In this document: positions 18,749 to 34,416 of the stretch, one piece after another
Layout of the letters: every line of letters starts with the position of its first letter
Numbering within the stretch: position 1 is the first letter of the stretch
Assembly: GCA_001775395.1 (NCBI GenBank)
Contig: MEWP01000121.1
Span: 1 to 37,563, forward strand
DNA: 37,563 nucleotides
Source of the DNA: a candidate division Zixibacteria bacterium RBG_16_53_22
GTDB lineage: Bacteria > Zixibacteria > MSB-5A5 > UBA10806
Direction: 5' to 3'
Notes under the pieces: model-generated
The model's input: the letters and a program-made list of their open reading frames with translations, nothing else
Told to the model about the DNA's origin: nothing
Database searches by the model: none
Translations under genes and position numbers: made by a program

Positions 18749-21355
18749 ATGAATGCCCCCGAACGGCTGACGCCCTTGCTGAAACAATACTACTCCATCA
18801 AGAAGCAGCACCCCGGCCGCATCCTCTTCTTCCGCATGGGTGATTTCTATGAGCTGTTCGGCGATGACGCCGTGACCGCCTCATCCGTTCTGGGAATCGC
18901 CTTGACATCGCGCGAACACGGCGATTCCGGCAAGATTCCCCTGGCCGGAGTTCCCCATCATACTCTCAATCGTTACCTGGCCAAAATGCTTCAGGCCGGA
19001 TTCAAAATCGCGGTGTGTGATCAGGTCGAGGACCCCAGACAGGCCAGGGGGATTGTCAAGCGCGAGGTTGTCGAGGTCCTCACGCCGGGAAGCATCACGC
19101 TGGATGGCCTCATCGATGATGACAAGCCCAATTTTCTTGCCTCCTTGAATCCGGTCCGCGATACTATCGGCATGGCCCTGCTCGATATAACCACCGGGCA
19201 TTTCCTGGTCGACCAATTCGAGCGGACTGCCCTGAGCGAAAACCTCTCGTTTTATAATCCTTCCGAGGTAATCATTCCCGATAGTTTCAAGACCGAACTG
19301 GCGAAAGGCATTCCCTCGGCAGCGTGGACTGTGACGCCGATAGATGACTACAGGTTTGACCCGTCGCTTGCATATAACGACCTCCTGACTCATTTCCAGG
19401 TTCCCACGCTCGATGGTTTCGGCCTTGGCCAAGTTAATGCCGTTATTGGCGCCGCCGGCGCGGCCTTATCGTATGTTCGCGACCTCAAGGCCGGCAAAGT
19501 GGGACAGATCACGAAGATCGTCCGTATTCGCCGCGGCGATTTCATGGAGCTAGATTCCGCCACCATAAGGAACCTCGAATTGGTCGAGACACCATACGAG
19601 GGCCGGAAGAATTCGCTCCTTGCCATAATCGACAGAACCTGCAGTCCGGGGGGCGGCCGGCTCCTTCGCAGTTGGATTCTGGCTCCGCTGATCAAGCTCG
19701 GCCCCATCGAGGCTCGTCAGGCCGCCGTGCGTGAATTGAAGTCAAGTCCCCAGGTCAGGAAAGGGATTTCCGAGGCGCTTCAGGGATTGCCCGATCTGGA
19801 GCGCCTGACATCGAAAATAGCAATGAGAAAAGCCGGGCCGAGAGACCTGCTTTATCTTAAAATGGGTTTGGACAAGGCAACACGGATTAAGGCCCTGTCA
19901 GTGACTCTTGAATCGGGGGTACTATCGACCGCGGCGTCGCAAATATCCGATTTCAGCAGCCTGGCCGATCTCATCGCCAGGGCCTTAGTCGATAACCCCC
20001 CGGTCACTCTGCAGGACGGCGGCCTCTTTCGCAGAGGATTTTCCCCGGAGCTGGATACGGTCATAGCCTCTATCGATGGTGCCCGCAAATATATTCATGA
20101 CCTCCAGAATGTCGAGCGCGAACGGACAGGGATACCATCGCTGAAAGTCGGCTACAACAAGATTTTCGGATATTATATTGAGATTACCAATCCTCATTTG
20201 TCAAAAGTGCCATCCAGATTTATCAGGAAACAGACCCTCGTCTCGGCCGAGCGTTTCATAACAGAGGAGCTCAAGGTCAAGGAGGAATTAATCCTCAGCG
20301 CCGAGGAGAAAATAAAATCGCTCGAATACGAGCTTTTCGACCGGCTCCTGGATTCCGTCTGCGGCTTTGTCCTCCAGGTGCAGGAGGCCGCCGATGCCGT
20401 TTCCATATTCGACGTCATGCACTCATTTGCGATCCTGGCCGACCAGGCCGGCTATATAATCCCCGAGCTCGATGATACGCTGGCCATCCATATCGCCGAA
20501 AATCGCCATCCTGTTCTCGAAACCATCCTGCCTCCCGGCAAATTCATACCCAACGACGTGGAGCTGAACGGCGATGACAAGAGGATCGGCATCATCACGG
20601 GACCCAACATGGCGGGCAAATCGACATTCTTAAGGCAGGTCGGCCTGTCCATCCTGATGGCCCAGATTGGAGCTCCGATTCCGGCCACATCGGCGCGAAT
20701 TGGCCTTTGCGACCGAATTTTCACCCGCGTCGGCGCCTCCGATGATATTATCAGGGGGCGCTCCACCTTCATGGTGGAGATGACAGAGGCCGCCTCGATC
20801 CTCAACAACGCCACCGATCGAAGCCTGATCCTTCTCGACGAGCTTGGCCGAGGCACCTCCACTTACGATGGATTGGCCATTGCATGGTCGTTGGTCGAAT
20901 ATCTCGATAAAGTGAAAGGCAAGCGCGCCCGCACTCTATTTGCCACCCATTATCATGAGCTGATAGACCTGGGCCGGGAATCCCGGGGCATCTTTAATCT
21001 CCAGGTCGCTGTCAAACAGTGGCAGGATACAATAATATTCCTATACAAGATCATGCCCGGGGGATGCGACGATTCGTATGGTATCCAGGTCGCCAGGCTG
21101 GCGGGGCTGCCGCCCCGGCTCCTGGAACGAGCCCGCGAAATCCTGGCGCAACTCGAATCCGGCTCAACCCCCGGCGGCGGCAGGCGAGACGGCCAACCGG
21201 CGACATCCTACCAAATCTCGCTTTTCGCACCCGGGGAAAACAGGCTTCGCGAATTTCTGAACGGAATCGAACCGGATAAATTGACGCCGCTGGAATCCTT
21301 GAGTATATTAGAACAGCTCAAGAAGATCGCAACGGAAGGAGAAAGCGGCTCATGA
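18749..21355 (+). CDS. mutS: DNA mismatch repair protein MutS
   Basis: The 868-aa ATPase recognises mismatches. The N-terminal mismatch-binding domain has the F-x-E motif in RMGDFYELFGDD. The connector, lever and clamp regions follow. The ATPase has Walker A GPNMAGKSTFLRQVG near residue 620, the signature region GRSTFMVEMTE, and Walker B LLDELGRGTSTYDG. A short Pro/Gly linker leads to a C-terminal helical tail. Length matches the family. The stop overlaps the next gene (ATGA), so mutS and the M28 peptidase share a transcript despite unrelated roles. Confidence 0.97.
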   Translation: MNAPERLTPLLKQYYSIKKQHPGRILFFRMGDFYELFGDDAVTASSVLGIALTSREHGDSGKIPLAGVPHHTLNRYLAKMLQAGFKIAVCDQVEDPRQARGIVKREVVEVLTPGSITLDGLIDDDKPNFLASLNPVRDTIGMALLDITTGHFLVDQFERTALSENLSFYNPSEVIIPDSFKTELAKGIPSAAWTVTPIDDYRFDPSLAYNDLLTHFQVPTLDGFGLGQVNAVIGAAGAALSYVRDLKAGKVGQITKIVRIRRGDFMELDSATIRNLELVETPYEGRKNSLLAIIDRTCSPGGGRLLRSWILAPLIKLGPIEARQAAVRELKSSPQVRKGISEALQGLPDLERLTSKIAMRKAGPRDLLYLKMGLDKATRIKALSVTLESGVLSTAASQISDFSSLADLIARALVDNPPVTLQDGGLFRRGFSPELDTVIASIDGARKYIHDLQNVERERTGIPSLKVGYNKIFGYYIEITNPHLSKVPSRFIRKQTLVSAERFITEELKVKEELILSAEEKIKSLEYELFDRLLDSVCGFVLQVQEAADAVSIFDVMHSFAILADQAGYIIPELDDTLAIHIAENRHPVLETILPPGKFIPNDVELNGDDKRIGIITGPNMAGKSTFLRQVGLSILMAQIGAPIPATSARIGLCDRIFTRVGASDDIIRGRSTFMVEMTEAASILNNATDRSLILLDELGRGTSTYDGLAIAWSLVEYLDKVKGKRARTLFATHYHELIDLGRESRGIFNLQVAVKQWQDTIIFLYKIMPGGCDDSYGIQVARLAGLPPRLLERAREILAQLESGSTPGGGRRDGQPATSYQISLFAPGENRLREFLNGIEPDKLTPLESLSILEQLKKIATEGESGS

Positions 21356-22848
21356 AAATTCCACTGCTTTTAATATCATCAGTCGCTATTGCATCCTCAG
21401 TTCAGGTGGCAGAGCGCGCGGCCATAGAATATCCCGTTATTGCCCTTTACGAGAATCAGGACATGCCATCGGGCTTGCAGCCTGCCTACGCCGGCCTTCA
21501 TTATTCGCTGGCCTTTGTGCCTTCTGAGCTGCTCGAGGATTTCCGGGGCGAGCTCCTCATGCCCCTATCACCGGGTGACTATTATATCATGCGCGTCGCG
21601 GCCCCCGAATCCCTGATGGCCGTGTCAGGCAAAATTCCCTTTGTCCTTCTGGGGGAGGATGCCATATTCAAAACCGATCCCGCCGGCGCCGCTACCCTTT
21701 CCCGATTTGGATGGGGCCTCACCAGGCTGAGCGAACCGGCCACCGCTCCGAGAACGCCCGCTCCGGGTGGGCCGCCCATGACTGCGCAGGTCGATTCCAA
21801 CATCCTGGAAATGATTTCGGTGATTACGCCTCAATCATCGCGTCTGATTCTTTCCGACCTCTCCGCCATCTGGAGCCGCAACTCCTATACTCAAGGATGC
21901 CGCCAGGCCGAGCAATATGTGTTCGACTATCTGGTCCAGCAGGACTACAGCACCTCCTTTTTTAATTTCCAGTTTGGGGGCGTCAACATGAGAAACGTCA
22001 TCGGCGAGAAGCTTGGCGAGGTTCATCCGGAATCGATTATTATCGTCTGCGCCCACCTCGATTGCATCAGCGAAACCCCTGACTCGCCGGCTCCCGGCGC
22101 CGAGGATAACGCCAGCGGTTGCGCCGTTGTGCTTGAAACAGCGCGGGCATTCAGCCAATTCCCGTGCGATATGACAGTCAGGTTCATCACCTTCTCCGGC
22201 GAGGAACAGGGCTTGATCGGCTCCGATCAATATGCCGCCTATGTCCAGAGCCAGGGGGCGCTTGTCGCGGCAGTCCTGAATGTCGATATGGTCGGCTATA
22301 GCGGCCCCTATGCCCAGGATATGTATATTTTCAGCGACCACAATTCCTATTCGCTGGGGGCGCTGGGAGCCTCGATAATTTCCGATTATACTAACCTCGA
22401 TACCAACACCGTCTATAACTATTTCCCTCAATACGGTTCCGATCATTATTCCTTCGCCATCAGGGGGTATCCGGCGATATTCTTCATTGATGCCTGGCTT
22501 GATTACGATTGGTATCCATTTTACCATACCTCGGCGGATACGGTTGGAAATCTGAACCTTGCCCAGCAGGCATCGATAGGCCGGGCTGTCGCCGCCATGA
22601 CAGCGTTTCTATCCAGGCCCGACTTCGGACCACAATATGTCGCCGGCGATGCGAACGGCGATGGCGCCGTTAACGGCATCGACGTTATCTATCTGGTAGG
22701 CTACCTCAAGGGATTCGTGCCTGCCCCGGAACCGATCCTCAGAGCTGACGCCAACGGTTCTTGCAGTGTCAATGGCCTCGATGTTGTCTACCTGGTTTCA
22801 TATCTCAAGGGGACCGGAGCCCCTCCGTTCTATGGCGAGTGCCGATAG
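21352..22848 (+). CDS. Secreted M28 family metallopeptidase with dockerin repeats
   Basis: The 498-aa protein starts with a signal peptide (MKIPLLLISSVAIASSVQ). The M28 zinc-aminopeptidase domain shows all ligand motifs: His235 in CAHLD, Asp252 in AEDNASG, Glu284/285 in SGEEQG, Asp312 in LNVDMVGY and His392 in YHTSADT. The C-terminus carries two calcium-binding dockerin type I repeats (GDANGDGAVNGIDVIYLVGY near 433 and RADANGSCSVNGLDVVYL near 465). Such tails occur in many FCB-group secreted proteins, usually without cellulosomes. It overlaps mutS by 4 bp. Substrate unknown. Confidence 0.9.
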   Translation: MKIPLLLISSVAIASSVQVAERAAIEYPVIALYENQDMPSGLQPAYAGLHYSLAFVPSELLEDFRGELLMPLSPGDYYIMRVAAPESLMAVSGKIPFVLLGEDAIFKTDPAGAATLSRFGWGLTRLSEPATAPRTPAPGGPPMTAQVDSNILEMISVITPQSSRLILSDLSAIWSRNSYTQGCRQAEQYVFDYLVQQDYSTSFFNFQFGGVNMRNVIGEKLGEVHPESIIIVCAHLDCISETPDSPAPGAEDNASGCAVVLETARAFSQFPCDMTVRFITFSGEEQGLIGSDQYAAYVQSQGALVAAVLNVDMVGYSGPYAQDMYIFSDHNSYSLGALGASIISDYTNLDTNTVYNYFPQYGSDHYSFAIRGYPAIFFIDAWLDYDWYPFYHTSADTVGNLNLAQQASIGRAVAAMTAFLSRPDFGPQYVAGDANGDGAVNGIDVIYLVGYLKGFVPAPEPILRADANGSCSVNGLDVVYLVSYLKGTGAPPFYGECR

Positions 22849-23089: not shown

Positions 23090-23127
23090 ATCCAAGCTCG
23101 ATTTTGGAACGATAGAATGGAGGCAAT

Positions 23128-23769
23128 ATGAGTATTATCAGGGACTCCGACAAAGAGGCGATAAAGAAGGAAATTGCCGGTTTGACCGGACCTGTCAAGC
23201 TGATAAATTTCACTCAGGAACTGGAATGCCAATATTGCAAGGAGACCAACCAGATCGTCAAAGAGGTCGCCGAACTATCCGACAAGGCAACCGCCGAAAC
23301 CTACAATTTTGTCACCGATAAGGAGAAAGTCGACAGCTTCAAGATCGATAAAATACCGGCCACCGTTATCATGGGAACCGATGATAGAGGGATAAGATTC
23401 TACGGCGTGCCATCAGGGTATGAATTTATCAGCCTTCTCGAGGCCATCAGAATAGTATCATCAGGTAATTCCGGGCTCCAGCAGCGATCGAAGGAAGTTC
23501 TCGGCAAGCTCAAGAAACCGCTTCACTTGCAGGTTTTCGTAACTCCCACCTGACCTCATTGCCCCCGGGCGGTCAGCCTGGCGCACAAGATGGCATATGA
23601 ATCGCCATTAGTCACAGCCGATATGGTCGAGGCCACCGAATTCCCGCATCTGGCGATCAAATACCAGGTGATGGGAGTCCCCAAAACAATTATAAACGAG
23701 GAATTACATATCGAGGGCGCCATGCCCGAACAAATGCTAATTCAAAGAATTGAGGAAAAATTCACCTAA
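23128..23769 (+). CDS. Selenocysteine-containing protein disulfide oxidoreductase (two thioredoxin folds)
   Basis: Read through an in-frame TGA at 23551-23553, this gives 213 residues matching the two-domain glutaredoxin-like PDO family. Domain 1 has CQYC at residues 34-37 and its cis-proline in DKIPATVIM. Domain 2 should have CPHC after VFVTPT; the codon for its first cysteine (residue 142) is TGA, giving UPHC with Cys145, and its cis-proline lies in MGVPKTIIN. The frame then stays open for 71 codons to a TAA. A SECIS-like hairpin follows the TGA. Sec at the nucleophile of a thioredoxin motif is a recurrent selenoprotein pattern. GGAGG precedes the ATG by five bases. The alternative is a Cys-to-stop mutation; selA/B/C/D are not in the window. 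Confidence 0.85.
23554..23588 (+). promoter_or_regulatory. SECIS-like hairpin downstream of the in-frame TGA
   Basis: Upper stem of six pairs, 23565-23570 (CCGGGC) with 23576-23581 (GCCTGG, one G-U), closed by the pentaloop GGTCA (23571-23575). An internal loop separates it from lower pairs TTG (23559-23561) / CAA (23586-23588). The apical loop begins 18 nt after the TGA. The E. coli fdhF SECIS has a GGUCU loop at nearly the same distance. No obvious bulged U is seen. Confidence 0.75.
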
Positions 23770-24019: not shown

Positions 24020-25051
24020 ATGCAAAAAAAATTATTTGTCATTCTTGGAATGGCGGCAGTGGCCATGTTCCTGATTATGGGGTGCGAGGGCGAGAGGGGC
24101 CTTCAGGGTGAGCCCGGCACTACCACTTGCTTCGGCTGTCACGATAACGATAACCTCGAGATGATCGCCATCGAGCGGCAGTGGCAGCATTCGAATCATG
24201 GCATCGGGGCCACTGTCTTCGAAAGCGGCCAATCATGTTCGCGCTGCCACACCGGCCAGGGATTCATATCTGTTCACACCGGCGATGGAGACACTATCGC
24301 AGTCGATGAGCCATCGGTCATCCACTGCTTCGTCTGCCACGCGCCCCATGACAACGGCAACTTCAACCTGCGCGTCACCGGCGCTGTCGCCTTTCCGATG
24401 GGCGGCACGTTTGATGGTTTCGGCCCGGCCAGCACCTGCGCCGCTTGCCACCAGGCGCGCCAACCCAATCCCCCATATTCCGATGCCGATTCGCTCACGA
24501 TCCGTTCCAGGCGTTGGGGCCCGCACCATAGCATGCAGGCCGACGTTTTCCTCGGGACGCACGCCTACGTGTTCCCCGGCGTAACACTCGACAGCACTTC
24601 GGCCCATAACCAATTGGCCGGGGAAGCCTGCGTAACCTGCCACATGGCGACCCCTGTAGGCGACATAGGCGGCGGCCATTCTATGAATGTAGCGTTCCTC
24701 GAAGAGGGCGAGGAGACTGAACTCACCTCCGCTTGCACTGTAACTGGCTGCCATGACGGCGAGGTGGATTTCACATTCGGCTATAACGGCGTGCAGGATA
24801 GCGTTGAGGCCCTGCTCGAAACCTTGCGCGGTTTGCTTCTTGAGGATAGCCTGATCACTGAGGATAACCTGGTGAAGGCCAGCTCGTCCAGCCCGCTGGT
24901 CGTACCTATGGACGTGGCAGGAGCCATCTTCAATTTCCTGTTCTTCGAGGATGACCGGTCGTTAGGCGTGCATAATCCCGATTATTACTTCAGCGCGCTG
25001 AACGCCTCTATCGATTTCATGAACTCCCGACGAATGTTGGCTGCCCATTAG
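24020..25051 (+). CDS. Multihaem c-type cytochrome lipoprotein
   Basis: The 343-aa product has a lipoprotein signal with the lipobox LIMGC (Cys22), then a short collagen-like Gly-x-y run (GERGLQGEPG). Five CXXCH haem sites follow at residues 37-41, 73-77, 103-107, 140-144 and 204-208. A sixth possible site at 239-245 is C-x4-C-H. Many extra histidines could be distal ligands. The last 100 residues have no haem motif. It is likely anchored in the outer membrane or periplasm for electron transfer. GGGAGG precedes the ATG. No partner redox gene is adjacent; the gene is monocistronic with its own promoter and terminator. Confidence 0.88.
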   Translation: MQKKLFVILGMAAVAMFLIMGCEGERGLQGEPGTTTCFGCHDNDNLEMIAIERQWQHSNHGIGATVFESGQSCSRCHTGQGFISVHTGDGDTIAVDEPSVIHCFVCHAPHDNGNFNLRVTGAVAFPMGGTFDGFGPASTCAACHQARQPNPPYSDADSLTIRSRRWGPHHSMQADVFLGTHAYVFPGVTLDSTSAHNQLAGEACVTCHMATPVGDIGGGHSMNVAFLEEGEETELTSACTVTGCHDGEVDFTFGYNGVQDSVEALLETLRGLLLEDSLITEDNLVKASSSSPLVVPMDVAGAIFNFLFFEDDRSLGVHNPDYYFSALNASIDFMNSRRMLAAH

Positions 25052-33879: not shown

Positions 33880-33908
33880 TTGAACGCGGGCCGGAGAAGT
33901 TGTATTAA
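33880..33908 (+). promoter_or_regulatory. Promoter of smpB, predicted leaderless
   Basis: TTGAAC (33880-33885), 17 bp, TATTAA (33903-33908). The smpB ATG is seven bases beyond the -10, where transcription should begin. Confidence 0.5.
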
Positions 33909-33915
33909 GACTTTG

Positions 33916-34416
33916 ATGGCATCGAAACCGGAGAAAAAAGGCCCGCCGGGCCAGCCCAGGAAAGACCTGATTAAAGTAGTCGCCAGCAATCGTAAGGCCC
34001 GGCACGATTACGAGATTCTCGAATCGCACGAAGCCGGCATCGCCCTTCTGGGAAGCGAGGTCAAGTCGCTGCGCGACGGCAAGGCCAACCTGAAAGACTC
34101 CTATGCGGTCGCCTCAGCCGAGGGCGTTGTGTTATACAACACTCACATCGCCCCTTATGATAAGACCGGCTACGCCGGGCACGAGCCCGAGAGACCTCGC
34201 CGACTTCTGCTCCATGAGAAGGAAATTCGCCGGCTAATCTCCCAGACCGCGGAAAAAGGATTGACTTTGATACCTCTGAGGCTCTATTTCAAGGGTAAAT
34301 ATGCCAAGGTTGAGCTCGCTGTCTGCCGCGGAAAACGCCAGTACGATAAGCGCGCCGCCATAGTCAAGCGTGAAACAGAGAGGGCGATTGAAAGAGAAAT
34401 CAAGCGTCGCCATTGA
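33916..34416 (+). CDS. smpB: SsrA-binding protein SmpB
   Basis: The 166-aa RNA-binding protein acts with tmRNA in rescue of stalled ribosomes. The core VASNRKARHDYEILESHEAG, the GSEVKSLRDGKANLKDSYA block and the basic C-terminal helix (KRAAIVKRETERAIEREIKR) match the family. The ATG at 33916 is chosen because SmpB begins close to this point; the TTG at 33880 is better read as the promoter -35. No Shine-Dalgarno is near. tmRNA itself is not in the window. Confidence 0.94.
   Translation: MASKPEKKGPPGQPRKDLIKVVASNRKARHDYEILESHEAGIALLGSEVKSLRDGKANLKDSYAVASAEGVVLYNTHIAPYDKTGYAGHEPERPRRLLLHEKEIRRLISQTAEKGLTLIPLRLYFKGKYAKVELAVCRGKRQYDKRAAIVKRETERAIEREIKRRH

Follow-up and report, generated by a model that had tools for sequence, protein, structure and literature searches.

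Gene and reading frame

The window analyzed here is the whole 37,563-nucleotide stretch of contig MEWP01000121.1 from the candidate division Zixibacteria bacterium RBG_16_53_22, whose genome is a draft of 169 contigs (96% complete). On the forward strand, positions 23128 to 23769 hold a coding sequence of 213 amino acids that, when read through one in-frame TGA, is assigned by its frame, profile match, structure model and Foldseek search to the selenocysteine (Sec)-type protein disulfide oxidoreductases (PDO; TIGR02187). A GGAGG sequence (positions 23119 to 23123, forward strand) lies 4 nt 5′ of the ATG at 23128 and resembles a ribosome-binding site. The TGA at 23551 to 23553 is codon 142, and 71 sense codons follow before a TAA at 23767 to 23769, with no frameshift and no second stop in frame between the two. 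A standard gene caller terminates the gene at the TGA, giving a product of 141 residues. Two active sites are encoded on the same strand. The N-terminal site is C34-Q-Y-C37 (codons TGC CAA TAT TGC, 23227 to 23238), and the C-terminal site is U142-P-H-C145, in which codon 142 supplies the predicted Sec and the TGC codon at 23560 to 23562 the predicted resolving cysteine. Further downstream, MGVPKTIIN (residues 182 to 190; 23671 to 23697, forward strand) contains P185, predicted to be the cis-proline that faces the active site, a role assigned from established knowledge of the thioredoxin fold.

TGA is also the ordinary stop of 13 other main genes in the window, so it is not globally reassigned. 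In 12 of these 13 genes the next in-frame stop comes within 73 codons of the TGA, and in the remaining one (SmpB-like, 33880 to 34416) the frame continues into the following gene. A preliminary description of this DNA had given the same start, TGA, terminal stop, frame and motifs, which proved exact, and had likewise argued against global reassignment. Directly upstream of the PDO gene lies an M28-family peptidase with a C-terminal dockerin domain (21352 to 22848), and a lipoprotein-like multiheme c-type cytochrome lies 3′ of it (24020 to 25051); neither of these neighbors was recognizable as a partner for the PDO.

Family assignment and predicted structure

With the TGA read as Cys, TIGR02187 (NCBIfam) covers the full frame (284 bits against a cut-off of 185; E = 4e-85), aligning protein residues 6 to 210 with positions 2 to 208 of a 209-position model, and residues 1 to 208 match solved archaeal (Pyrococcus) protein disulfide oxidoreductases (E = 7e-50). 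Because both matches run end to end across the TGA, the open frame is not a chance occurrence. An AlphaFold2 model built with 34 homologues (mean pLDDT of 95) predicts a tightly packed two-domain unit in which both thioredoxin folds carry a CxxC or UxxC redox motif and a conserved proline loop, and superimposes on the PDO structures 1j08, 1a8l and 2ayt with TM-scores of 0.92 to 0.93 (Foldseek). In the 34-homologue alignment C34, V184 and P185 are invariant and C37 nearly so. The genome has a single TIGR02187 copy and this copy carries the TGA, so there is no Cys-containing spare.

Archaeal and Aquifex PDOs (1a8l, 1j08, 2ayt, 2hls; TM-scores of 0.91 to 0.93) share the two thioredoxin folds, a CQYC-type N-terminal site and a CPYC-type C-terminal site, but have Cys where the window protein has its predicted Sec. 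The N-terminal domain of AhpF (5h29, 1zyn) has the double thioredoxin fold in common (TM-scores of 0.82 to 0.88) but is more distant (24 to 30% identity) and is fused to a thioredoxin-reductase-like part, whereas the window PDO stands alone; at 213 amino acids, the latter scores 81 bits against the AhpF model TIGR03140, whose cut-off is 503. Selenoprotein thioredoxins and glutaredoxins use the same UxxC chemistry within a thioredoxin fold (PMC13188914), but they are single-domain proteins of other families. The closest counterparts are seleno-PDOs already catalogued (PMC9312934, PMC13188914), which share the NCBIfam model and the UxxC motif type and differ from the window gene in phylum. The preliminary description knew of no such family as a standard selenoprotein, and on this point it needs correction. 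A 2006 listing already placed the PDO family among selenoproteins, with two sequences (PMC1794560), and it appeared again, as a predicted selenoprotein, in 2022 and 2026 (PMC9312934, PMC13188914); four seleno-PDO sequences have been described from Asgard archaea (PMC11227280), and the NCBI name of TIGR02187 is PDO_seleno_TRX. The window gene is an additional example within an already listed selenoprotein family, not a new type.

Cysteine and UGA forms among homologues

Scanning genome contigs for homologues yielded 80 loci, and 132 genomes from the phylum, when searched, contributed 20 full-length genes above the cut-off plus one partial gene. Among the full-length genes of the phylum, 13 of 20 (window gene counted) have TGA at codon 142 and 7 have Cys. 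In the merged non-redundant set (n = 99, window gene counted), residue 142 is Cys in 79 members and TGA in 20, and no other residue occurs there. The TGA thus sits at the first Cys of the second CxxC motif, as the preliminary description proposed, and none of the relatives has an unrelated or frameshifted tail past this codon. The members newly added to the family come mostly from Zixibacteria and Chloroflexota; the closest relative (L022/L108, the same locus; 70% identity), from the same bacterial family, has TGA too. The predicted Sec is found only at the C-terminal site. In two TGA forms (L116 and L119) the N-terminal site is down to a single Cys (CxxY and GxxC at codons 34 to 37), which suggests that these proteins may work through the Sec site alone.

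Within the genus of the source organism, genome G118 contains a Cys form (FVTPACPYC; L121, positions 3 to 446, cut by the contig end) despite a clear tRNA-Sec, so a single genus harbors both the Cys and the Sec form. More broadly, the presence of tRNA-Sec does not separate the two forms: it is clear in 18 of 20 distinct TGA-form genomes (the exceptions being the drafts with L046 and L089) and is found in most Cys-form genomes as well. Two other in-frame stops were considered and rejected. A Chloroflexota locus (L033, 647 to 1282) has Cys142 and a TGA at codon 145 (1080 to 1082; CPY-TGA), a potential CxxU variant; its genome has no tRNA-Sec above the cut-off, and this TGA is probably an error. 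L107, the Cys-form sister of the TGA-form L109, has an in-frame TAG that was evaluated as UAG-encoded Sec, but this TAG is codon 87, which belongs to neither motif, and its genome gave no tRNA-Sec match.

A 98-protein tree built after masking residue 142 (a quick search with SH-aLRT support only) implied 11 Cys/Sec changes, without direction, at least 8 of them on well-supported branches. We regard it as an evenly balanced proposition that PDO genes of this family are a hot spot at which Cys and Sec have been swapped repeatedly, in every case in the C-terminal motif, with the hairpin described below gained or decaying along with the UGA. If so, the sister pairs L109/L107, L119/L112 and L089/L054 would constitute a natural experiment on what leads a lineage to adopt or abandon selenium.

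Selenocysteine machinery and a SECIS-like hairpin

The source genome encodes a tRNA-Sec (73 bits, anticodon UCA) together with selB (337 bits), selA (452 bits) and selD (353 bits), so that all four genes for which the preliminary description had recommended a search (selA, selB, selC and selD) are present. The genes selD, selA and selB form one cluster on contig C147, and selD, too, contains a single in-frame TGA, located at its usual CAGU position (CAGUASK). Adjoining this cluster (L169, 6051 to 10334) are a TIGR01977 (EF2568-type) cysteine desulfurase, which is related to the selenocysteine lyase SclA yet scores under the SclA cut-off, and a NapH-like ferredoxin membrane protein. A dockerin-like repeat protein is also found beside the cluster, in addition to the dockerin peptidase upstream of the PDO gene.

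A short way 3′ of the UGA, a bSECIS-like hairpin occupies positions 23565 to 23581 of the forward strand (stem of CCGGGC at 23565 to 23570 with GCCUGG at 23576 to 23581; apical loop GGUCA at 23571 to 23575). The bacterial SECIS consensus calls for a small apical loop with G in loop position 1 or 2, located 16 to 37 nt from the UGA (PMC13188914); the window hairpin, which starts 11 nt and has its loop 17 nt past the UGA, fits this consensus. Scored against synonymous-codon variants, with a loop window picked after viewing the window gene and the published 16- to 37-nt rule, the hairpin had a mean z of 2.07 in TGA copies (n = 20) and 0.28 in Cys copies (n = 79), and control segments taken from these genes showed no such rise. 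Hairpins of at least 6 pairs with the loop at 17 to 18 nt were present in 18/20 TGA copies vs 5/78 Cys copies, a contrast inflated by related sequences. Among independent tree pairs (n = 8), about 6 favored the link between hairpin and TGA, 1 opposed it and 1 was a tie (sign test, P = 0.125). Statistical support for the element is strong across sequences and modest once kinship is corrected for. For the window gene alone, 101 of 5,000 synonymous variants (2%) reached the observed score, which is suggestive only. The signal was seen only by position-specific scoring against synonymous codons; the free minimum-energy fold of a 56-nt segment spanning the UGA shows no exceptional stability (z = −0.20). 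Stems vary by lineage (CCGGGC/GCCUGG, GGCCGC/GCGGCU, CCAGGC/GCCUGG) and the loop position is constant.

Interpretation of the in-frame UGA codon

Judged from sequence, the apparent stop almost certainly inserts Sec into a disulfide-handling enzyme. The Sec genes, the pairing of 79 Cys with 20 TGA homologues and the SECIS-like hairpin together support what the preliminary description had put forward at its core, namely a Sec-encoded UxxC in the C-terminal PDO domain. Of the other ways to read the codon, a regulated dual product, with Sec and the two-domain enzyme made when selenium is ample and termination leaving a functional single N-terminal domain when it is not, fares best, and we consider it unlikely. 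Sec insertion competes with termination, and the N-terminal domain has its own CQYC and ends cleanly ahead of the second motif; the break nevertheless falls inside domain 2 of the modeled two-domain unit, which may leave the short form unstable.

An error in sequencing or assembly, replacing a TGC or TGT in an ordinary Cys-type PDO gene, might be suspected from a fragmented draft when most homologues have Cys at this position. It is very improbable, given that 19 further non-redundant loci, drawn from independent assemblies, have TGA at the identical codon and that the hairpin tracks the TGA copies, which is unexpected from random error. Equally improbable is that the 141-residue single-domain protein predicted by the gene caller is the real product and the remainder a decaying pseudogene remnant. 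The codons 3′ of the TGA are conserved as well as those 5′ of it: in close TGA-bearing pairs, dN/dS is 0.00 to 0.11 downstream and 0.03 to 0.18 upstream, so the downstream codons are under purifying selection. The frame past the TGA is also intact, and truncation would remove the more important of the two active sites. Decoding of the UGA by Trp or some other standard residue, or its reassignment in this organism, has nothing in its favor beyond the open frame and can hardly be entertained when TGA terminates 13 other window genes, the genome has a dedicated UCA tRNA-Sec and the residue replaced is a catalytic Cys.

Under the preferred reading, Sec at codon 142, SelB held by the hairpin just 3′ of the UGA would deliver Sec-tRNA-Sec to this codon, yielding a cytosolic-type PDO of two thioredoxin folds with UPHC in its C-terminal active site and CQYC kept in its N-terminal site. 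Mutagenesis of the Sulfolobus PDO places the main thiol-transferase role at the C-terminal site, and that enzyme takes electrons from thioredoxin reductase and hands them to peroxiredoxins (PMC7465337, PMC7278568). A standard thioredoxin reductase is encoded in the source genome (contig C131, 93773 to 94666; 373 bits). By analogy, the window PDO most likely receives its electrons from thioredoxin reductase and passes them on to proteins with disulfides, peroxiredoxins among the candidates. Sec142 would then be the nucleophile that attacks, and Cys145 would serve as its resolving partner. Taken as a whole, a PDO with SelB- and hairpin-directed Sec142 acting in such a relay is, in our judgment, a highly probable explanation.

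For this bacterium, standard annotation would truncate the only PDO of the genome and lose the dominant active site, which lies past the UGA. For the family, known since 2006 from computational prediction alone, the present set adds further members, apparent repeated Cys/Sec exchange and the confinement of Sec to the C-terminal site. The 20 UGA and 79 Cys forms, with their close sister pairs, offer a practical test of what Sec contributes at one of two otherwise similar sites in one protein, and the same set makes it practical to ask how bacterial SECIS elements originate within a coding region.
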